A stretch of DNA of 64,000 bases from Ruania alkalisoli (lineage in GTDB: Bacteria; Actinomycetota; Actinomycetes; Actinomycetales; Beutenbergiaceae), in the NCBI RefSeq assembly GCF_014960965.1, contig NZ_CP063169.1, positions 1,397,581 through 1,461,580 on the forward strand, read 5' to 3'. The first letter of the stretch is position 1, and the number at the start of each line of letters is the position of its first letter. A model generated the notes under the pieces. The model searched no databases and had not been told where the DNA came from. It saw only the letters and a program-made list of their open reading frames with translations. The position numbers were made by a program, and so were the translations under genes. Shown piece after piece: positions 3,444 to 50,000 of this stretch.

Positions 3444-3458
3444 GGCGCACGTCACCTG

Positions 3459-4169
3459 TCACAGCGACATGCCGCCGTCGACGACGATCTGTTGGCCGGT
3501 GATGTAGGCGCTCGATTCCGAGCACAACAGCAGCGTCGCGGCCACACAGTCCTCGGGCGTGCCGAGGCGGCCCGCAGGGATCTGCGCGATGACGTCGCGT
3601 TGGTAGTCGGGATCGGCCAGGGCGTGCTCGTTGCGAGGTGTGGCGATAGTTCCCGGAACGACCGTATTCACGGTGACGCCTGCGGACGCAACCTCGCGAG
3701 CCAAGCCCGAGACAAGGGTCTGCTGCGCAGCCTTCGTGGCTGCGTAGGCGAGCATTGCCGCATGAGGGCGGTGCTGCTGGATGCTCCCCATCAGCACCAC
3801 CCGGCCGTATCCCCGCGTGACCATCGGACGAAGCGCACCTCGCACCAGTGCGTAGCTCTCGATCAGGTTGGCTCGGACCTGGCGCTCGACTTCAGCGTCT
3901 GTTGTGGCCGACCAGTCGGTGCGGATCTGCACGGACGCACAGTGCACGAGGATCTCGACCGGGCCCGCCGCGCGGGCGAGTGCGTCGCCTGAACCTGTCT
4001 GCGTGAGGTCATGAGTGAGGTCACCGATCAGGTCTTCATTCAGTCCATGCCGCAGGACTGTGGCGCCTCTCTCTTCGAGCGTTCGCGCCACTGCCAGCCC
4101 GATCCCGCTGCTCGCACCGGTGACCAAGGCGGTCCGTCCGGCGATACCAGCGGTGAGGTAGGTGTCCAT
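3459..4169 (-). CDS. SDR-family oxidoreductase
   Basis: A 236-residue classical short-chain dehydrogenase. The cofactor loop TGASSGIG is at residues 17-24, the catalytic serine at 129 (MGSI), and the YxxxK pair at Tyr142/Lys146 (YAATK). The end, ITGQQIVVDGGMSL, is typical. The ATG at 4169 is chosen because the Rossmann strand starts 12 residues later; the frame stays open far upstream through the preceding gene. It follows the RraA-like gene by 5 bp on the same strand, so the two are one operon. Likely role: oxidation of a sugar acid or its 2-keto-3-deoxy derivative with NAD(P). Confidence 0.88.
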   Translation of the reverse strand: MDTYLTAGIAGRTALVTGASSGIGLAVARTLEERGATVLRHGLNEDLIGDLTHDLTQTGSGDALARAAGPVEILVHCASVQIRTDWSATTDAEVERQVRANLIESYALVRGALRPMVTRGYGRVVLMGSIQQHRPHAAMLAYAATKAAQQTLVSGLAREVASAGVTVNTVVPGTIATPRNEHALADPDYQRDVIAQIPAGRLGTPEDCVAATLLLCSESSAYITGQQIVVDGGMSL

Positions 4170-33235: not shown

Positions 33236-34108
33236 CTACAGCGACTTGCCGCCGGTGACGGCGAGGATGCAGCCGCTGGTGTAGGAGGCTTCGTCGGAGG
33301 CCAGGTAGACGTAGGCGCCGGCGAGTTCGGCCGGCTGCCCGGCGCGGCCTAGTGGGGTGTCCTGGCCGAAGGACGCCACATGGTCTTCCGACCATCCGGT
33401 GCTGGGGATCAACGGCGTCCAGATCGGCCCAGGGGCGACTGCGTTCACGCGGATCCCGCGTTCACCAAGCGACTGGGCCAGAGCCTTCACCAGGGCGGCC
33501 TGGGCCGCCTTGGTCATCGCGTAGTCAACCAGGCCAGGGCTGGGGTCGCACGCTTGGATCGATGTCGTGATGATGATGCACGAGCCCGGGCCCAGATGCT
33601 CGGCCGCCGCGCGGATCGTGATCAGCGGTGCCATGAAGTTCGTCTCGACCACCCGGCGTATCTCAGAGGTCTCCAAAGCGGTGATGTCGGAGATGTCGTG
33701 CTGGTACCCGGCGTTGAGAACCAGGACATCCAGCCCGCCGAGGGCATCGAGCGACTGGGCCACCACCTCGGTGTTGGCGCTCTCGTCACGGAGATCGGCG
33801 GGAAGCTGCACGACTGGTGGCCCTGCTGAGCCGATCAGGTGGACCGTCTGGGCTGTGTCGTCGGACTCCTCGGGGAGGTAGTTGAGCGCGAGGGCGCTAC
33901 CTTCGCGGGCGAACGCGATCGCCACGGCTCGTCCGATCCCCGAGTCGGCCCCGGTGATCAGGGTGCGGCGGCCGGCAAGGCGCCCGTGCCCGACGTAAGT
34001 TTCAGCACCACTGTCGGGTACGGGATTCATCGCCTCGTGGCTGCCCGGCGAGTCCTGTCGCTGCCCGGGGAACTCCCCGGAGTGGTAGGCCGTTCTCGGG
34101 TCGTGCAT
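33236..34108 (-). CDS. General-stress SDR oxidoreductase (YghA-like)
   Basis: 290 residues. A ~40-residue N-terminal arm (FPGQRQDSPGSHEAMNPVPD, in part) precedes the Rossmann domain, as in YghA/YdaD-type general stress dehydrogenases. Motifs: TGADSGIGRAVAIAFAREG, LNAGYQ, ITTSIQ (catalytic Ser), YAMTK (Tyr-x-x-x-Lys), and YTSGCILAVTGGKSL at the end. ATG 34108 has GGGAG 8 bases upstream; ATG 34123 is in frame but unsupported. Probably an NADPH-dependent aldehyde reductase used under stress. Confidence 0.88.
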   Translation of the reverse strand: MHDPRTAYHSGEFPGQRQDSPGSHEAMNPVPDSGAETYVGHGRLAGRRTLITGADSGIGRAVAIAFAREGSALALNYLPEESDDTAQTVHLIGSAGPPVVQLPADLRDESANTEVVAQSLDALGGLDVLVLNAGYQHDISDITALETSEIRRVVETNFMAPLITIRAAAEHLGPGSCIIITTSIQACDPSPGLVDYAMTKAAQAALVKALAQSLGERGIRVNAVAPGPIWTPLIPSTGWSEDHVASFGQDTPLGRAGQPAELAGAYVYLASDEASYTSGCILAVTGGKSL

Positions 34109-34198
34109 CCCGTCCACTCCCATCGGCGCTGCTCGAGCGCGGTTGGTCAGTGCATGCCCTGCCCACGCTAGCCAGACCCGTCAGATCTCGCACGAGGA

Positions 34199-34212: not shown

Positions 34213-34272
34213 AGAGTCCCCTGTGCGCTCCCGGCGATACCCCTCTCGCGTTCCCTGCCCCGCCGCGCGTGG

Positions 34273-34287
34273 ACGTTACCGGTCACA
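34273..34287 (-). promoter_or_regulatory. Probable LacI operator before the aldo/keto reductase gene
   Basis: The minus strand here reads TGTGACCGGTAACGT, identical over 15 bases to the plus strand at 36449-36463. The core GTTACCGGTCAC is palindromic except for one symmetric pair. The site covers the -35 position of the promoter whose -10 is at 34306, so binding should block transcription. Confidence 0.7.
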
Positions 34288-34305
34288 ATGCGGTCGAGGA
34301 CCGCG

Positions 34306-34311
34306 TAGATT
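34306..34311 (+). promoter_or_regulatory. -10 box, leaderless start of aldo/keto reductase gene
   Basis: TAGATT ends 7 bases before ATG 34319, with no ribosome site between. A leaderless transcript is likely. Confidence 0.5.
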
Positions 34312-34318
34312 GGCCGAC

Positions 34319-35299
34319 ATGGACTATCGCTCACTTGGCCGATCGGGGCTCGTCGTCTCGCCGCTGTGTCTCGGCACCATGAACTTCGGCCCCCGTACGA
34401 ACGAACAGGAATCCCACGCGATCCTGGATGCTGCGCTAGAGATGGGAATCAACTTCGTCGATACTGCGAACGGCTACGGCGAGCACGCGGGACAGACCGA
34501 GGAGATCGTCGGGCGCTGGATCGCTGGGGGTGGCAGTAGACGGGAGCGCACCGTGCTCGCGACCAAACTCCACCATCCGATGACCGAGTGGCCGAACGAT
34601 CGGGGTCTTTCGGCGCGGAACATCCGGCGGGCGTGCGATGCCTCCTTGCTGAGGCTGCAGACCGACTACATCGATCTTTATCAGATGCATCACATCGACC
34701 GCAGCACCCCGTGGGAAGAGATCTGGGAGGCGATGTCAGTACTGCGGCAACAGGGGAAGATCCTCTACGTGGGTTCGTCGAACTTTGCCGGCTGGCACCT
34801 TGCGACGGCGCAGGGGGTGGCCTCAGAGCTCGGTCTGCTTGGGCTCGTCAGCGAGCAGTCTCTGTACAACCTGCTGAGCCGATGGGTCGAACTCGAGGTG
34901 CTGCCTGCGGCAGAGCACTTCGGCATTGGCATCGTCCCCTGGTCACCCGTCGCGGGCGGTCTCCTGGCCGGAGTGCTGGCCAAGCAGCGCGAGAATGTGG
35001 CCGGCCGCGGCAGTGCCAACGAAGCGGGCATCGCACGGCACCGGGAGCAACTCCAGGCCTACGAGGTGCTCTGCGCTGAACTGGGGGAGTGGCCGGCCGA
35101 TGTTGCGCTCGCATGGTTGCTCACACGTCCCGCGGTGACCGCCCCGATCATCGGCCCGCGCACATGCGACCAGCTGCAGGGTGCTGTGCGTGCGCTCGAG
35201 GTGACGTTGGAGAGGCCGACCTTGGAGCGCCTCGACGAGTTGTTCCCCGCACCCTTCCCCCATGGCGGCAAGCCGGCCCCGGAGGCCTACGCGTGGTAG
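34319..35299 (+). CDS. Aldo/keto reductase
   Basis: 326 residues, AKR barrel. Catalytic tetrad positions are seen: Asp in INFVDTANGYG, Tyr in the same loop, Lys in LATKLHHPM and His in DLYQMHHID. The cofactor end has LLTRPAVTAPIIGPRTCDQL. Close in layout to YhdN/YajO-type reductases. It shares a 15-bp operator with the sugar-importer operon 2 kb downstream and lies just upstream of the LacI gene, so it likely reduces or oxidises a sugar brought in by that importer. Confidence 0.9.
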   Translation: MDYRSLGRSGLVVSPLCLGTMNFGPRTNEQESHAILDAALEMGINFVDTANGYGEHAGQTEEIVGRWIAGGGSRRERTVLATKLHHPMTEWPNDRGLSARNIRRACDASLLRLQTDYIDLYQMHHIDRSTPWEEIWEAMSVLRQQGKILYVGSSNFAGWHLATAQGVASELGLLGLVSEQSLYNLLSRWVELEVLPAAEHFGIGIVPWSPVAGGLLAGVLAKQRENVAGRGSANEAGIARHREQLQAYEVLCAELGEWPADVALAWLLTRPAVTAPIIGPRTCDQLQGAVRALEVTLERPTLERLDELFPAPFPHGGKPAPEAYAW

Positions 35300-35357
35300 G
35301 AACTGCATCACGGGCGGCCCACTGGTGGCGTCCACCGACTGAGGGTGAGGAGACGCG

Positions 35358-36347
35358 ATGAGCCCGGGGGGTGCGAAGAGATCTGCGACGATCTATGACG
35401 TGGCCAAGCGCGCTGGCGTCAGCCACCAGACGGTCGCGCGGTTCCTCAACGGGGATGGCGGCATCCGCCCGTACAACCGCGTCAAGGTCGAGGCGGCGCT
35501 CGAAGAGCTCCAGTATCGGCCCAATATGGTTGCCCGATTGCTCGCCACCAACCGCACCTACCGGCTGGGTGCGCTCGGGTTCGAAATCGCTGGGCACAAT
35601 CCGGGATTGGTCCTGCAAGGAGCCAGCGATGCCGCACGCGAACTCGGATACATCGTCGAGGTGATGGGGCTCGATCCGCTGGACCCCGGGATGCTCGCGG
35701 GCGGAGTCGAGGAACTGGTCCGCAAGGGTGCGGAGGGATTGCTCATCACCTCACCGACCGTGGGTACCGCCGCGGCCCTCGCCGAGCTCGACATCGAGGT
35801 GCCGATCGTGATCGTCGGTGGCGACGGCGCCGCCGCCAGTGAGCGCCGCGGCGCTCGGCTCGTACTCGATCACCTCACCGACCTCGGGCACACCCAGGTC
35901 GCGCATCTGGCCGGCCCGCCGGAATGGACGGCGGCGCAATTCCGGTTGACCGAATACGAGCGCTGGGCGGGTGAGGTCGGCACAGTTCCGGTGGTCTGGC
36001 CGGGCGACTGGGACTTCGAGTCGGGCTATCGCCGTGCCGAGATGCTGCCGGGTAGCGGCGTCACGGCGGTCTTCGCGGCCAACGACCGGATCGCCATGGG
36101 GGCGTTGTTGCGGATGCACGAGCTGGGGATCCGGGTGCCCGAGGACGTGAGTGTGGTCGGCTTTGACGATCTGTCGATGTCCGGATACACCTATCCGCCA
36201 CTGACCACGGTGCGGATGGAGTTCGAGCGCAGTGGCCGGGTGAGCGTGGCGCGGCTGATCGCCGCAATCGAGGGCCGAGAGCACGCCGGCGACTACCCCG
36301 AGCACCGGCTCGTGGTGCGCCGTTCCAGTGGGCCCGTGCGCGCCTGA
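35358..36347 (+). CDS. LacI-family transcriptional regulator
   Basis: 329 residues. LacI HTH at residues ~11-35 (TIYDVAKRAGVSHQTVARFLNG) with hinge YRPNMVARLLATNRTY, then the periplasmic-binding-protein-like sugar domain (LVLDHLTDLGHTQVAHLAGP; AVFAANDRIAMGALLRMHELGIRVPEDVSVVGFDD, split over the C-terminal half). GAGGAG precedes the ATG. It sits between the aldo/keto reductase gene and the importer operon, each of which has the same 15-bp near-palindrome with a central CG, the expected shape for a LacI-family operator. Confidence 0.92.
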   Translation: MSPGGAKRSATIYDVAKRAGVSHQTVARFLNGDGGIRPYNRVKVEAALEELQYRPNMVARLLATNRTYRLGALGFEIAGHNPGLVLQGASDAARELGYIVEVMGLDPLDPGMLAGGVEELVRKGAEGLLITSPTVGTAAALAELDIEVPIVIVGGDGAAASERRGARLVLDHLTDLGHTQVAHLAGPPEWTAAQFRLTEYERWAGEVGTVPVVWPGDWDFESGYRRAEMLPGSGVTAVFAANDRIAMGALLRMHELGIRVPEDVSVVGFDDLSMSGYTYPPLTTVRMEFERSGRVSVARLIAAIEGREHAGDYPEHRLVVRRSSGPVRA

Positions 36348-36406
36348 TCCACGCGCGTCCGGTCGGTGCGGGCATCGCATCGGAAGTCCGCTTCGGTGCT
36401 GAGGCG

Positions 36407-36436
36407 TTGCGCTCGCGTGATTCGTGCGTCTAGACT
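36407..36436 (+). promoter_or_regulatory. Promoter of the sugar-importer operon
   Basis: TTGCGC (36407-36412) and TAGACT (36431-36436) are spaced by 18 bases. The predicted start near 36443 falls just before the operator at 36449-36463. Confidence 0.45.
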
Positions 36437-36448
36437 CGCAGCACGAAA

Positions 36449-36463
36449 TGTGACCGGTAACGT
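36449..36463 (+). promoter_or_regulatory. Probable LacI operator before the sugar-importer operon
   Basis: TGTGACCGGTAACGT, the same 15 bases as found inverted at 34273-34287. It lies immediately downstream of a predicted promoter and 25 bases before the ATG 36489, where a repressor would block elongation or initiation. Confidence 0.72.
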
Positions 36464-36488
36464 TTTGAAGCCACGAAGGAGTGTCTCC

Positions 36489-37796
36489 ATGTCCCGAACA
36501 GCCTCCCGGCGCCACATATCAGCGGCCCTGTGCCTCGCTGGCACGGCGGCCTTGTCCCTGGCCGCATGCACGACGGGAACCGCGGATCCGGCGCCTGATC
36601 CCGAGTCACCCGTTGTCCTGGAGTACTGGTCATGGGCTCCGAACATCGAGGAGGTGGTCTCGATCTGGAACGAGGCCAATCCCGATATCCAGGTGGAGGT
36701 CAACAACTCAGCCGGTGGTGGCGAGATCACCGCAAAGCTCCTGGCGGCGGCGGAGGGCGGCAACCTGCCAGACCTGTCCAACATCACCTACGACAACCTG
36801 CCGACGCTGGTGGTGAACGAGATCGCCGACGACGTCTCGGACGCCATGGGGGACCGGGAAGCCGACACCGCAGTGCCCGCATGGAATCTCACCACCTTCG
36901 GTGGTGTGAACTACGCTGTCCCGCAGGGAACATCACCGCAGATGCTCTTCTACCGCACCGACGTCTTCGCCGAACTCGGACTGGAACCACCAACTACGTG
37001 GGACGAGTACGCGCAAGCAGCCCGCGTGATCCGTGAGAACGACCCGGATACCTACCTCGCGACCTTCCCCTCCAATGATGCCTCGCTCTTCGCTGCACTC
37101 GCCCAGCAGGCAGGCGGTCAATGGTGGTCCAACGACGGCGAGCAGTGGAGCGTCGACATCGACGGTGACGCGAGTGTTCGCGTCGCGGACTATTGGCAAG
37201 GTCTGGTCGATGAAGGCGTCGTGGCAACGATGAACACCTACACCCCGGAATGGCAGGCCGCAGTCGCCGATGGCACGCTCGTCAGCTGGCTCGGTGCGGT
37301 CTGGTCACCCCCGCTCATCGAGCAGAACGCCCCCGACACCGCCGGACTGTGGCGCGCCGTGGAGATTCCCCAGTGGGATCCGGAACCGGCAGCCGGCGTG
37401 ATGGGCGGCTCGGGAACAGTGGTCACCACGCAGACCGAGCACCCCGAGCAGGCGCGTGAATTCGCGCTCTGGCTGAACACCTCCCCGGAGGCGATCGAGG
37501 CATACATCGAGCACGCGAGCATCTGGCCCTCGGCGCTCGAAGGGCGCGAGATCGACGCGCTGCAGTCCCCGCCGGACTTCATGTCCGAGCAGAGTGACTA
37601 CTACGAGCTTGCAGCCAGGATCGATGAGTACACGGTGCCGGTGACCTGGGGCCCGAACGTTGCCTTCGGCTTCGACTCCTTCAGCAACGCCGTGAGTGAA
37701 GCCCTGTCAACCGGCACGAGCTTCGCCGACGCACTCACCGTCGTCCAGCAGAGCGTCGTCGAGGAGATGGCGTCACTGGGCTATCCGGTCGAGTGA
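36489..37796 (+). CDS. Sugar ABC importer substrate-binding lipoprotein
   Basis: 435 residues, family 1 solute-binding protein. Lipoprotein signal with lipobox LAAC (Cys27). The mature part opens VVLEYWSWAPNIEEVVSIWNE, then ITAKLLAAAEGGNLPDL and the pocket segment SPQMLFYRTDVFAELGLEPPTTWDEY (split here for length). Aromatic-rich stretches (GGQWWSNDGEQW; GAVWSPPLIE) fit sugar stacking. AAGGAG precedes ATG 36489. First gene of a CUT1 importer with two permeases; the sugar is unknown. Confidence 0.93.
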   Translation: MSRTASRRHISAALCLAGTAALSLAACTTGTADPAPDPESPVVLEYWSWAPNIEEVVSIWNEANPDIQVEVNNSAGGGEITAKLLAAAEGGNLPDLSNITYDNLPTLVVNEIADDVSDAMGDREADTAVPAWNLTTFGGVNYAVPQGTSPQMLFYRTDVFAELGLEPPTTWDEYAQAARVIRENDPDTYLATFPSNDASLFAALAQQAGGQWWSNDGEQWSVDIDGDASVRVADYWQGLVDEGVVATMNTYTPEWQAAVADGTLVSWLGAVWSPPLIEQNAPDTAGLWRAVEIPQWDPEPAAGVMGGSGTVVTTQTEHPEQAREFALWLNTSPEAIEAYIEHASIWPSALEGREIDALQSPPDFMSEQSDYYELAARIDEYTVPVTWGPNVAFGFDSFSNAVSEALSTGTSFADALTVVQQSVVEEMASLGYPVE

Positions 37797-37810: not shown

Positions 37811-38755
37811 GTGTCAGCGATGTTGGTGCCAGCGGCTTCAGCACGATCTCGACGGCGGCGCATCACCGGGCGTGCTGTGGCGCCCTGGGTGTTCCTCACG
37901 CCGGCACTGGCGATGATCACCGGTGTTCTCACGATTCCCCTGGGGTACGCGCTGTGGGTGAGTCTGCATCGGCAGCGCATCTCCGGGGGCGGCCTCGGGG
38001 TGGCGGAGGAGGTGTTCGTCGGGCTCGAGAACTATGTGCGTGTGTTGGCGCGTCCAGACCTGCTTCCATCGGTGGGGCGGATGCTGATGTTTGCGCTGAT
38101 CTTCGTGCCGATCACGCTGACGCTGGCATGGGTCTTCGCGCTCATGCTGGACAACGAGAGCACCAGGCTCCGACGCGTCACCCGCATCGGCATCTTCATC
38201 CCTTATGCCGTCCCCGGCGTCATCGCGGCGCTCATGTGGGGCTTTCTCTACCTGCCAGGAGTCAGCCCGTTTCACGATTTCGCTGCAGCCGTGGGTACGC
38301 CGCCGCCTGACTTCCTGGGTGCGGGGTCGATCGTGGCCTCGATCGCGAATATCGCGATCTGGGGTGCGGTCGGATTCAATACCGTCATTCTCTACACGGC
38401 GCTGCGGGGCGTGCCCGGTGAACTGTATGACGCCGCCAAGATAGACGGGTGCAATGCAATCCAGTTGGCGCTGAGGATCAAGACACCACTGATCGTCCCC
38501 GGCCTCGTGCTCACCGGGATGTTCACCATCATTGGCTCGCTGCAGGTCTTCAGTGAACCCAACACGATGGTGCTGCTCTCGGCTGCGATCGGTTCGGACT
38601 GGGTGCCGATGATGGTGGTCTACCGGGACGCCTTCATCACCAACGACCTCTACGGCGCATCGGCGTTGTCCATGCTCATGACGGCAGCGACCGTTCTTGC
38701 CTCCCTGCTGGTATTTGCGATCACGCGCTGGCGTGCCACCCGAGGAGGTGCCTGA
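37811..38755 (+). CDS. Sugar ABC importer permease (MalF-like)
   Basis: 314 residues from GTG 37811, which has GGAG 8 bases upstream; GTG 37793 overlaps the preceding stop but lacks a ribosome site. Six membrane segments (AVAPWVFLTPALAMITGVLT to LASLLVFAITRW). The EAA coupling loop is GELYDAAKIDGCNAIQLALRI followed by PLIVPGL, i.e. E-x7-G with a Cys after the Gly. No ATPase gene is in this operon. Confidence 0.92.
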   Translation: MSAMLVPAASARSRRRRITGRAVAPWVFLTPALAMITGVLTIPLGYALWVSLHRQRISGGGLGVAEEVFVGLENYVRVLARPDLLPSVGRMLMFALIFVPITLTLAWVFALMLDNESTRLRRVTRIGIFIPYAVPGVIAALMWGFLYLPGVSPFHDFAAAVGTPPPDFLGAGSIVASIANIAIWGAVGFNTVILYTALRGVPGELYDAAKIDGCNAIQLALRIKTPLIVPGLVLTGMFTIIGSLQVFSEPNTMVLLSAAIGSDWVPMMVVYRDAFITNDLYGASALSMLMTAATVLASLLVFAITRWRATRGGA

Positions 38756-39591
38756 TGCGCACTCGTGGACTGATCCCAACTACCGTGCTGGTGCTCGGTG
38801 CTGTGTACTGCCTGTTCCCGGTGTACTGGCTGGTGGCCGCTGCTACCAAACGATCTTCGGAACTGTTCTCCACGCCGTCCGTCGTGCCGAGTTTCACCGG
38901 CGGCTTCGCGGAGAACATTCAAGGACTTCTCCAGTTCGCCGGGGGCGCGTTCTGGGGTTGGAGTCTCAACAGCGTGATCTATGCCGGAGGTGGAGCGCTC
39001 GGCGCCACCGCGATTGCCGCGATGGCGGGATTCGCGCTGGGGAAGTATGAGTTCCGTGGCAAGCGAATCGTCCTGGGCTACGTACTGCTCGGGGTGCTGG
39101 TGCCGGGAATCATCCTCGCGATCCCGCAGTACCTGCTGATGTCGACCATTGGCCTGGCGGGGACGCACTGGTCGATCCTGCTGCCGGTGATGATCAGCCC
39201 GTTCAGCATCTACCTGGCTTGGATCTTTAGCATGTCGGCTATTCCGGACGAGATGTTGGAGTCAGGGCGCCTGGACGGCGCGGGGGAGCTCCGCCTGTTT
39301 CGTAGCATCGGGCTCCCGATGCTGACGCCCGGACTGATCACGGTGTTCCTACTGCAGTTCGTTGGGATCTGGAACAACTTTCTGCTGCCGTTCATCATGG
39401 TCACGCAGCGGGATCTGATGCCACTGACTGTTGGTTTCTACTCAATGATGAACCAGGGGACGGACCAGACGAATGTCTACAATTTCGTCATTATGGGTTG
39501 CCTCTTGGCTGTCGCGCCGCTTATCGCACTCTTCCTCTTCTTGCAGCGCTACTGGAATCTCGATCTGGTGACCGGATCCCTCAAGGGCTGA
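38755..39591 (+). CDS. Sugar ABC importer permease (MalG-like)
   Basis: 278 residues, six membrane segments, start overlapping the previous stop (TGATG). The EAA loop is IPDEMLESGRLDGAGELRLF followed by IGLPMLTPGL. The C-terminal RYWNLDLVTGSLKG is the usual end of MalG-type permeases (…Q-x-x-x-x-G-x-x-x-G-x-x-K-G). Pairs with the preceding permease. Confidence 0.93.
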   Translation: MRTRGLIPTTVLVLGAVYCLFPVYWLVAAATKRSSELFSTPSVVPSFTGGFAENIQGLLQFAGGAFWGWSLNSVIYAGGGALGATAIAAMAGFALGKYEFRGKRIVLGYVLLGVLVPGIILAIPQYLLMSTIGLAGTHWSILLPVMISPFSIYLAWIFSMSAIPDEMLESGRLDGAGELRLFRSIGLPMLTPGLITVFLLQFVGIWNNFLLPFIMVTQRDLMPLTVGFYSMMNQGTDQTNVYNFVIMGCLLAVAPLIALFLFLQRYWNLDLVTGSLKG

Positions 39592-39619
39592 AGCCCCCAA
39601 CCTTTCAAAGGACGTGAAT

Positions 39620-40546
39620 GTGGATTTCCTTCCTAACGGCGCCTGGCCGGTCATGCTCACCCCGTTCCGGGACGATCACGCGATCGACTGGGATGCGGTG
39701 GAGGCTTACACCGACTGGCTGATCAGGACCGGCGCTGCCGGGATCTTTGCTGTCGCGCTCTCCAGCGAGATGTATGACCTGACGCCCGCCGAACGTGTCG
39801 CGCTGACGCGTCGGGTCTCGGACGTGGCTGACGGGCGGGTACCGGTGATCTCCTCCGCGCTCGGTGGCGAACCTGCGCAGATCGCTGCCGCGGCGGCGGC
39901 TCAGGTGGAGGCCGGTGCCGCAGCGGTGGTGCTCATCGCCTCAACGCTCGCCACTGCGGAGGAGTCCGATGACGTGCTCTTCACTCGGGTTCAGACGGTG
40001 CTGGAGGATGTACCCGATGTCCCGTTCGGGATCTATGAATGCCCGGTGCCCTACAAGCGGCTCCTGACCCTGGAGACCGTCAGGGCTCTCGCGAGTACTG
40101 GACGATTCGTGTTCTACAAGGACACAAGCCACCGCATGGACACCATGACGGCCCGTATCGGGGCCAGTCGGGGCACCCCGCTGAAGCATTACAACGCGGA
40201 GATTTCCTCCCTGGTCAGCACGCAGCGTGCGGGTGGTCACGGGTTCTGTGGGTATGCAGCGAACATCTATCCGGACCTGGTGGCCTGGCTGTGTGCGAAC
40301 TACGAGTCGGAAGCGGTCGCCGAGGTCGAACGGGTGCAGCGCCTGCTCAGCATCGCCGAGCACGGTATCAATAGCCGCTACCCCAGCAGCGCGAAGTACT
40401 TGCTGGCCCACCGTTCCGGTCTGCAGGTGCTTCCCGTGAGCAGGTGGAAGCCGGAGCCGATCGGACCACATGAGGGACAGCCGTTGATCGACCTCGTCGA
40501 CTACATCGACTCACTCGACCTCCCTGGACTACGCACCTGCCAGTAG
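39620..40546 (+). CDS. DHDPS/NAL-family aldolase (DapA superfamily)
   Basis: About 308 residues from GTG 39620 (AAAGGAC 8 bases upstream; GTG 39614 is too close). Class I aldolase barrel: start GAWPVMLTPFRDDHAIDWDA, conserved Tyr139 in FGIYECPVPYKRL and Schiff-base Lys167 in RFVFYKDTS. Ser/Glu in ALSSEMYDLTPAERV replaces the usual GTTGE loop of DapA, which argues against lysine biosynthesis. It is cotranscribed with the sugar importer, so likely cleaves a keto-acid sugar derivative (sialic-acid-like or 2-keto-3-deoxy acid). Substrate unproved. Confidence 0.86.
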   Translation: MDFLPNGAWPVMLTPFRDDHAIDWDAVEAYTDWLIRTGAAGIFAVALSSEMYDLTPAERVALTRRVSDVADGRVPVISSALGGEPAQIAAAAAAQVEAGAAAVVLIASTLATAEESDDVLFTRVQTVLEDVPDVPFGIYECPVPYKRLLTLETVRALASTGRFVFYKDTSHRMDTMTARIGASRGTPLKHYNAEISSLVSTQRAGGHGFCGYAANIYPDLVAWLCANYESEAVAEVERVQRLLSIAEHGINSRYPSSAKYLLAHRSGLQVLPVSRWKPEPIGPHEGQPLIDLVDYIDSLDLPGLRTCQ

Positions 40547-47023: not shown

Positions 47024-50000
47024 TCAAGATAACTGGCGCTGGTGCCGTTGCTGCCGGAGGGCCAGCAGCGCCGCGCCGAGGACCAGGAGGGTTGCGCTGG
47101 CGGCTAGTGCGAGGAGCACATTCGCGCCCGTGTCTGGCATCTCCTGGCCAGGATCGGTATCGGTCGGTTCGCTGGTGGGCGGGTTGGTCGGTTCGCTGGT
47201 GGGCGGGTTGGTCGGTTCGCTGGTGGGCGGGTTGGTCGGTTCGCTGGTGGGCGGGTTGGTCGGCTCGGTGGGGGGATCGGTCGGTGCAGGTGCCACGCTA
47301 AGGGTGAACTCCGCGGTAATGGGATCGCCCACGAACACGGTGAACGTCACATCGCCGGCGGCCTCGGGAGTACCTGAGATCTCGCCCGTCTCGGTGTCGA
47401 GGTCGAGTCCTGCCGGAAGGTCGCCCTCGAACATGCCCCAGGTGTACGGGCCGCCGTTGCCGCCGTCCGCCTCCAGCGTGACCGAGTACTCCTCGCCGAC
47501 TGTCCCGTCCGGGAGGGAGTCCGTCACAATCACCAGCGGGTCGAGCAAGGTCAGGGTGCCGTTCACGTATTCGAAGGTGTAGGAGTCGTCCGCTCCGTCG
47601 CTGCAGAACGTGGTGGCGGCATCCATGTCATAGCCGCAGGTCGGCAGGGTGTCCAGGTCGTCGATCGTGTCGTCGTCCCAGAAGCCGGTGTAGCTGGCCG
47701 TCACCTCCGGCTCGAACGCACCCTCGTAGGTCGTGGCGTCGCCTGCCGTGACCGTGATGACCCCGCCGGAACGTTCCACCGCGCCGGCATCACACGCGCT
47801 GGCCACCAGCCGCGGGTAGCCGTCGCCGCGCTGATCGACGCCACCGGGGCACAACTCGATCGTCTCCTCGCTCCACGGCGCCGTGGAGCCGGTGGGCACC
47901 AGGTTCACGGCCGGGCTCGTCGACCCGGGAAGCACTGTGCGGCTGGGACCGCCGTTGTCACCGAGCGGTTCGAGCAACGGGTCCGCGACAACGCTCGTGT
48001 CGGCATCCAGTTCGCAGGTGTCATCCGAGGCGACGTTGAAGCCGCCGTCGGTCAGGTTGGACAGGTCGCCCTCGCAGGCCGGCGCGCCATCGGGGGAGTG
48101 CACGATCGAAGCGATCGCAGTCGCTGTGGTGTCCTCGCTCAACACGAGGCCGCCCTCAGCATTGTCCGCGACAGTGCTGCCCGCGAGCAGCAGTGGTGCC
48201 GCGGGGATGTCGCCGAACTCGTCACCGATCGCCTCCGTACTGATGCCGAAGCCGCCGTTCCCGGCGATGGTGCTCGAGAGGACGAGGCCGCTGGAGACGG
48301 TGCTGATCCGCAGGCCGGAACGCGCATTGGTCGACACCTCGGTCCGCACCAACTCGATATCGCCGGGCCAGTCGGAGCCCGTCGGGCCAACAATGGCGCC
48401 GTAGCCGGTGATCGGCACACCGAAGAGATCGTCGAGGTCGGTGCGCACGTTGTCGCTGATGATGCTGTCCGTCAGTGACAGGCTGCCGCCCTGCACCATC
48501 GCGCCCCCGGCGTTGCCGGTGATCGTGAGGTCGTGTCCGGTGACTGTTGCAGAGAACCGGAGGGCGATGCCACCGAAGCCGAAGGCGGACCCCAGGTGCG
48601 GGTCGAGGCCGTTACCGGTGATCTGGGTGCCGGTCAAGTCGATCGTGGTCCGCCGTTGCGAATGCGGCTCCTCGACGGCGAAAACACCTGCCCATTCGTT
48701 GTCAGCCACGACGCCACCGGTCATCGTGACATCGGCATAGCCCGCGAACAGGCCCAGGATGTTGCGGCTGAGTTCGGTGTCGGTCACGACCGCATCGACG
48801 GGACCGTCCAGGTACAGGCCAGCGCCTGGTATCCCGTCATCGGTAGCTCCGCCGTCGTTGTCCGTCACGGCGCTGTTCGTGAGCTCCAGGCTGGATTCGG
48901 CGAGCGAGGCGATGGCCTGCACCCCGGTCTCGTTGTTCGCGATGGTGCTGTCGCTGATCTGCGTCTGGCCGTGCTCGACGTTGACCCCGAAGGCATGGCC
49001 CGTGATCTCGGTGCCGGTGATCGAGACGGTGAGCGGAATGGATTCACCCTCCGTCGTGTCAGTCCGTCCCCAGATGCCAGCACTCTGGCTTGCGCCGGTG
49101 TTGTCGGACACGGTGCTGTTGATCAGCGTGACATCGCCACCGTCGGGCAGCATCATGCCGTTGTCGTTGCCCGAGATCGTGACGTCCTCTCCGGTGAACG
49201 TGCCACCGTCGTAGATCACCACCCCACCGCGGAACGTCCCGCCCGAGGGGTCGCCGCTGTCGATGATCGAGGTCCCGGTCACGTTGAATGCCGCATCGGA
49301 GGAGTAGCCGAAGAGTCCGCCACCGATTCTGCCCGATACCGTTCCGCCCGTGATCGTCGCCACACCCCTCGTCACTGCAACGCCGGTGAGCTCGGCGGCG
49401 ATGGTGGACGAGTTGATCGTGACCATCGCCGGTGCGGGGTCTACCAGTGCAATGTCACCCACTGCGACGCCGGTGCCGACTCCCGTGATCGTCGCGCCGT
49501 CGATGGTGACGGTGCTGCCGGCGTCCGCAACGACGCCTGCGCCTGCGGGTGCTAGCTCGTCGCCGGTGATGCTGATTCCCGAGAGCATCGCGGTGCTGTC
49601 GGCGGCAATCCGGATCGCCGGCTCTGAGCTGGGCATGGCGTTGTCGTCCGTGAAGCCGATGTCGGCGATCGTCACCGCGCCGGCGGCCGCATCGATGAGC
49701 ACCGCGGGCATGCTGTCGGGGGCGAGGTTGGTCAGTGTCACCTCGTCTGCCCCCGCACCCTGCAACGTCACCGGGGTGGCGATCGTCAGAGCCTCGTCGT
49801 AGTCGCCGGCCGCGATCGACACGATGTCATCGGGAGGGGCCAACGTCAGTGCCGCGCCGATCGTGGCGCACGCATCCGTGCCCGGGGCTTCGCCACAGTC
49901 CGGCCCGTCGGTTCCGGCGGTGGCATCGACGTACCAGGTGCCGTCGGCAGCGGTTGCTGGTGGGGCGCCCCCCGCCAGGATCAGGGCGGTCGTGGCGACG

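Follow-up and report, generated by a model that had tools for sequence, protein, structure and literature searches.

A conserved candidate operator and a probable local LacI-family regulon at an importer–lyase gene cluster in Ruania alkalisoli

Gene organization of the locus and its two operator copies

The window, i.e. the whole 64000-nt stretch of Ruania alkalisoli DNA that we analysed, contains a run of genes that are all on the plus strand, in the order AKR (aldo/keto reductase), lacI, SBP (solute-binding protein), permease, permease and lyase, together with two copies of a candidate operator (Table 1).

Table 1 Genes and operator copies at the locus, with positions in the window
Feature	Position	Strand	Remarks
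Operator copy 2, imperfect 20-bp palindrome CATTGTGACCGGTAACGTCC (minus reading)	34271..34290	-	Centre 34280.5, upstream of AKR–lacI
AKR	34319..35299	+	Nearest solved relative AKRtyl (AKR12D)
LacI-family repressor	35358..36347	+	329 aa; recognition helix SHQTVAR, hinge LLA
Operator copy 1, 20 bp, AAATGTGACCGGTAACGTTT	36446..36465	+	Centre 36455.5, upstream of importer operon
Extracellular SBP (SBP_bac_1)	36489..37796	+	Lipoprotein by eye
ABC permease 1	37817..38755	+	Start set at 37817 within a longer open frame
ABC permease 2	38755..39591	+	
DHDPS/NAL-superfamily pyruvate lyase	39614..40546	+	Lys169 and Tyr141 kept, DHDPS Arg position lost

The LacI protein scored above the cut-offs for both PF00356 and PF13377, giving an N-terminal helix–turn–helix and a periplasmic-binding-like ligand domain, and its recognition helix, with the Arg, and intercalating hinge Leu are those of a LacI-family member. 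The AKR contains a PF00248 domain and is matched over its full length by the AKRtyl chains (E 1e-118). The importer consists of one PF01547 (SBP_bac_1) protein and two permeases, each with PF00528, the arrangement of a CUT1-type sugar importer. No ATPase was found among the cluster genes scanned, and the importer presumably borrows one encoded elsewhere, which the two OB_MalK matches present elsewhere in the genome could supply.

The gap between the AKR and lacI genes measures 58 nt, with unremarkable RNA structure (z 0.48), so the left site is most simply read as the operator of an AKR–lacI unit, the two genes presumably being co-transcribed. It follows that lacI is probably autoregulated through this site, which the earlier note on this DNA had omitted; a separate lacI promoter could lie within the gap. 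Measured from gene starts that were picked by hand, the SBP ATG is 33.5 bp downstream of the centre of its site and the AKR ATG 38.5 bp downstream of its own. A consensus (sigma-70) scan found no promoter, and for this reason the elements that we picked out by eye, i.e. TTGCGC (36407) and TAGACT (36431) with 18 nt between them ahead of the SBP site, and TAGATT (34306) 7 nt before the AKR start, are given as suggestions only. They make an overlap of the operators with promoters plausible, and the earlier statement that both copies sit on promoter elements was to that extent too firm. An SDR-family gene on the minus strand (33236–34123) diverges from the AKR gene across a 195-bp stretch that includes the left operator, and could also respond to the repressor.

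Rarity and symmetry of the operator

Searching the window confirmed that the 15-mer TGTGACCGGTAACGT, reported in the earlier note as flanking lacI, is present in exactly two copies, at 36449–36463 (plus) and 34273–34287 (minus), with lacI between them. The genome-wide count which that note had proposed showed that exact copies are not scattered, as the 4.45-Mb genome holds these two only, both flanking lacI. No copy with one mismatch was found in the 4.45-Mb genome, and there are seven with two mismatches (one at 3449–3463 of the window) compared with five for the reversed-pattern control. Perfect matches to the degenerate core GTKACCGGTMAC number three in the genome, the two operator sites and position 350795, the last of which is located within a 535-aa open frame and was rejected as an operator. 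With one mismatch it is not specific, being found at 52 places compared with 37 for the reversed control.

The site is centred between C and G and its half-sites are imperfect (GTGACC and GTTACC), in agreement with the nearly palindromic core and central CG described previously. The length of 15 bp had to be revised, however: the corresponding palindrome in Occultella is perfect over 20 bp, so the operator is, on this comparison of sequences, a palindrome of approximately 20 bp rather than a 15-mer, and the window sites are imperfect versions of it. Operator copy 2 is the weaker of the two, matching the core at 11 of 12 positions and the Occultella palindrome at 14 of 20.

The exact match of 15 bases had been thought very unlikely to arise by chance, which proved to be wrong. 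The window contains 105 repeated 15-mers, of which a single tandem array accounts for 24, whereas the mean over 40 simulations with a third-order Markov model was 40 and the highest value 56. As such repeats are common in this GC-rich window, the evidence must come from position, symmetry and conservation. At 47162–47262 a 24-bp unit is repeated head to tail approximately four times and shows up as repeated 15-mers.

Conservation of the operator beside lacI orthologues

Among 24 genomes of the family, orthologues of both LacI (65–67% identity) and the lyase (63–65%) were found in three Occultella genomes, and in all three the locus has the order lacI–SBP–permease–permease–lyase, as in the window, and the lacI–SBP gap contains a palindrome that is perfect over 20 bp, AAACGTTACCGGTAACGTTT. 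Its 16-bp core, ACGTTACCGGTAACGT, is likewise found as an exact match in only these three of the 24 genomes. When up to two mismatches are allowed, it is matched in nine of the 24 genomes and its reversed control in four, so little weight can be put on loose matches. G011, the fourth genome from this genus, lacks an exact site, a lyase orthologue and a close lacI (best 38%). In both Occultella and the window, a single, unpaired site precedes SBP.

We also scanned genome contigs with the lyase alignment, which gave nine loci, from the three Occultella genomes, Actinotalea sp. K2, Microbacterium yannicii, Microbacterium ureisolvens, Devosia geojensis, a Rhizobiales isolate and a partial MAG; locus L126 was excluded, its match being partial and at 29%. 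An order-wide scan of 396 genomes at a match level of 1e-60 returned six, namely the window's own genome, the three Occultella genomes, G101, which has a full cluster, and G386, which was rejected as a cluster, with a lyase of only 36% identity, LacI matches of 27–29% and no site of at least 10 matches in 14 kb. In Actinotalea and both Microbacterium genomes the run of genes is lacI, SBP, permease, permease, lyase, second lyase and AKR, and G101 has the same run except that its lyase stretch is single and interrupted by an internal stop.

Sites were counted at the eight loci with a lacI relative (59.7 kb in hand-picked stretches, at a threshold of at least 10 of 12 core matches); the Devosia (L123) and Rhizobiales (L124) loci, where no LacI relative was found and the best match to the 20-mer is 12, were kept outside this count. 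The 14 core sites all precede lacI, SBP or AKR at a distance of 14–140 bp, compared with an expectation of 0.53 sites (maximum 3) from 30 second-order Markov simulations and none for the reversed motif. The number of matches alone is not unique, as 59 permuted palindromes gave a mean of 2.59 and one reached 21, and it is therefore the placement that persuades more than the count. The site is present at all eight LacI-plus-importer loci examined, so the conservation on which the earlier note had staked its proposal holds, and an even palindrome with a central CG, conserved beside lacI orthologues, is the form of a LacI-type operator. In both Microbacterium genomes and G101, lacI has its own upstream site. 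Paired sites precede SBP in Actinotalea (L121, 4643 and 4664, 21 bp apart) and G101 (L148, 11496 and 11516, 20 bp apart), and this spacing of 20–21 bp corresponds to about two helical turns. In Devosia (L123, 3770–10033), the same importer–lyase set is preceded by an AraC/MelR-like regulator, and a search for a LacI relative found none, on which grounds the regulator has probably been exchanged.

Membership of the AKR in the regulon

The AKR gene is present at five of the eight lacI loci (the window, Actinotalea, the two Microbacterium and G101) and absent from all three Occultella loci. Elsewhere in the family there are nine homologues of the AKR (62–77% identity), among which are those from Occultella and, as the nearest, those from G012–G014, and none has the operator upstream, the best match being eight of 12 core positions. 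Just 2% of bootstrap trees placed the cluster AKRs together as a single group, and no supported joining of the window AKR to those of the other clusters was found in the AKR tree, so the window AKR appears from its sequence to have been moved or recruited separately, which we regard as probable.

These results bear on whether the AKR is part of the regulon at all, as the earlier note had it, or a passenger caught between the left operator and lacI and without a part in the pathway, in which case nothing beyond the importer site and the autoregulation of lacI would matter. The Occultella loci, the nine siteless homologues and the lacI-proximal sites in the two Microbacterium genomes and G101 would all suit a passenger. 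Against this, a related AKR closes the same gene run in four other genomes (Actinotalea, both Microbacterium and G101), and in Devosia the lyase is directly followed by an AKR of a different subfamily, pointing to repeated lyase–AKR pairing. This second AKR is nearest to the L-glyceraldehyde-3-phosphate reductase subfamily (389 bits, below the cut-off of 448), and the Rhizobiales locus has one similar to it approximately 1.2 kb from the lyase. We therefore consider a passenger AKR unlikely and favour its membership in the regulon, a claim which the recurrent gene run supports and which the Occultella loci and siteless homologues weaken.

A LacI clade with an apparently changed operator core

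We built a tree from 34 LacI proteins, in which those of the eight clusters group with the proteins of G006 and G021 (support 100/99), and the operator core is co-inherited with this clade. A core with at least 11 of 12 matches to GTTACCGGTAAC (ACCGGT) was found at all ten clade loci and at one of the 24 outside it (L039), in searched stretches of uneven length (1.8–4.0 kb), whereas the AGCGCT version reaches 11 matches at six of the 24 outside and one of the ten inside. The SHQTV helix is found in all ten proteins within the clade and in 19 of the 24 outside, so that the clade appears to have changed its operator core while sharing these helix residues with most of its relatives. The two clade members that do not belong to lyase clusters show overlapping or close pairs of ACCGG-type sites within approximately 170 bp of their lacI matches, at approximately 1331–1354 in L016 (G021) and 1346–1371 in L014 (G006), 12 and 14 bp apart respectively.

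With LacI residues numbered after PMC2978694, these cores can be compared with the published LacI code (Camas 2010), which associates Arg at AA-20 with G at NT-6, AA-15/16 with NT-5/4 and AA-55 with NT-2. The window site fits the first of these rules (Arg and G), and this pairing and the central CG agree with the LacI rules in PMC2978694 and PMC4052901. Both Microbacterium LacI proteins and that of G101 have Lys at AA-20, and NT-6 is A or T in some of the half-sites at these loci. At hinge position AA-55, the clade has Ala in nine of ten proteins and Thr in one, compared with Val in 20 of the 24 outside (L016 and L022 being read from the printed stretch), and Ala at this position may explain the C at NT-2. 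Among the three outside members with Ala at AA-55, the CCGG core of L039 fits this suggestion and the AGCGCT core of L019 does not; in the stretch searched for L015, no site of either core type was found.

E. coli Lac repressor is the best natural match among the solved relatives of the window LacI, an ancestral reconstruction scoring slightly higher, and the window half-site GTGA.C resembles the lac half-site. The systems differ in the core, which is ACCGGT here and AGCGCT there, and in the lack of a β-galactosidase in the window cluster; on the NCBIfam LacI subfamily model, the window protein scores 209, below the cut-off of 340.

The genome contains 65 LacI-type matches, window lacI included, and with an SHQTV helix so widely shared the sites might instead be bound by another LacI-family protein, or by several with overlapping specificity. 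Yet the core type tracks the LacI clade (ten of ten compared with one of 24), the exact palindrome co-occurs with the lacI orthologue across the family and the nearest paralogue in the genome is only 39% identical, so we hold this to be very improbable. That the two 15-mers are a chance repeat, of a kind common in the window, is virtually inconceivable and already contradicted by conservation, as both copies are palindromic, upstream of genes, with a central CG and unique in the genome, and the SBP promoters at seven other loci have matching sites.

Regulon model and proposed pathway

We conclude that this is a system of an ordinary kind, i.e. a real, conserved, local two-operator LacI regulon. 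Conservation and site placement support the shared operator and local regulon of the earlier note, and it is very likely that the LacI encoded between the sites locally represses AKR–lacI and SBP–permease–permease–lyase through both operators. In the absence of ligand, a LacI dimer would occupy each palindrome of approximately 20 bp, with consensus half-sites AAACGTTACC and GGTAACGTTT, over or next to the promoters, and repress both units, its own gene included; accumulation of the imported compound or its product would release LacI from both sites. Local LacI-family sugar regulons described in Ravcheev 2014 (PMC4052901) are alike in their even palindromes with a central CG, in the upstream distance of the sites, which here is close to the usual range, in having the repressor next to the genes it controls and in probable autoregulation; the words dihydrodipicolinate, aldo-keto and lyase are absent from its main text.

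The substrate, which would enter through the importer with an ATPase encoded elsewhere, is suggested to be a sugar only by the families to which the importer and LacI belong. Among solved relatives, the SBP is best matched by one named as a galacto-N-biose/lacto-N-biose I binding protein (E 1e-38), a match that does not fix the ligand. In class I lyases of the DHDPS/NAL superfamily, a Lys forms the Schiff base and a Tyr is catalytic, and Lys169 and Tyr141 of the window lyase are invariant in 11 aligned rows, the profile aligning both with the Lys and Tyr of a solved DHDPS, which places the enzyme in this superfamily. True DHDPS has the motif YNxPxR, whose Arg binds a carboxylate. All 11 lyase rows have YECPxP, with the Arg position lost, and the DapA model gives 65 bits against a cut-off of 206, so a role as true DHDPS in lysine synthesis was rejected. 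Judging by these residues, the lyase is probably a pyruvate-releasing aldolase, which would split a 2-keto-3-deoxy type acid into pyruvate and an aldehyde. Three plasmid records carry lyase relatives (38–41% identity), which indicate no single common substrate, each being in a different context: a sodium:solute symporter; GH78 with Gfo/Idh; and an exo-α-sialidase with a tripartite tricarboxylate transporter.

The earlier proposal of import, redox and then aldol cleavage survives in its components (importer, reductase and lyase), but not necessarily in its order. The AKR could act on the substrate before cleavage, although cleavage followed by reduction of the lyase's aldehyde is at least as likely. 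This is a reasonable order because the D-galacturonate route of Aspergillus niger (PMC5488244) has one enzyme giving pyruvate and L-glyceraldehyde, after which GaaD makes glycerol. The fungal GaaC/GaaD pair resembles the proposed pathway in yielding pyruvate and an aldehyde that is then reduced, by analogy only; neither a dehydratase nor a uronate reductase was seen in the window cluster. Aldehydes of many kinds are substrates for reduction by AKRtyl, glyceraldehyde 3-phosphate and erythrose 4-phosphate among them (PMC10923870); the window AKR, which is like it in sequence, would differ in belonging to an import regulon.

A search for published work on this gene combination found none, and, by title, none of the papers listed for the genera was on this subject. 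As a tentative proposal, which we would not yet back over its alternatives, the cluster may represent an undescribed non-phosphorylating route in which a sugar-acid-like compound is imported, split by the YECP-type lyase and its aldehyde reduced by an AKR that had been recruited, the whole being controlled by a LacI clade with ACCGGT as its operator core, with a distribution over scattered actinobacteria and, with another regulator, alphaproteobacteria. Importer, lyase and reductase are joined by the proposed regulon into one testable pathway, and the exact operator could serve as a reporter in the search for its substrate.
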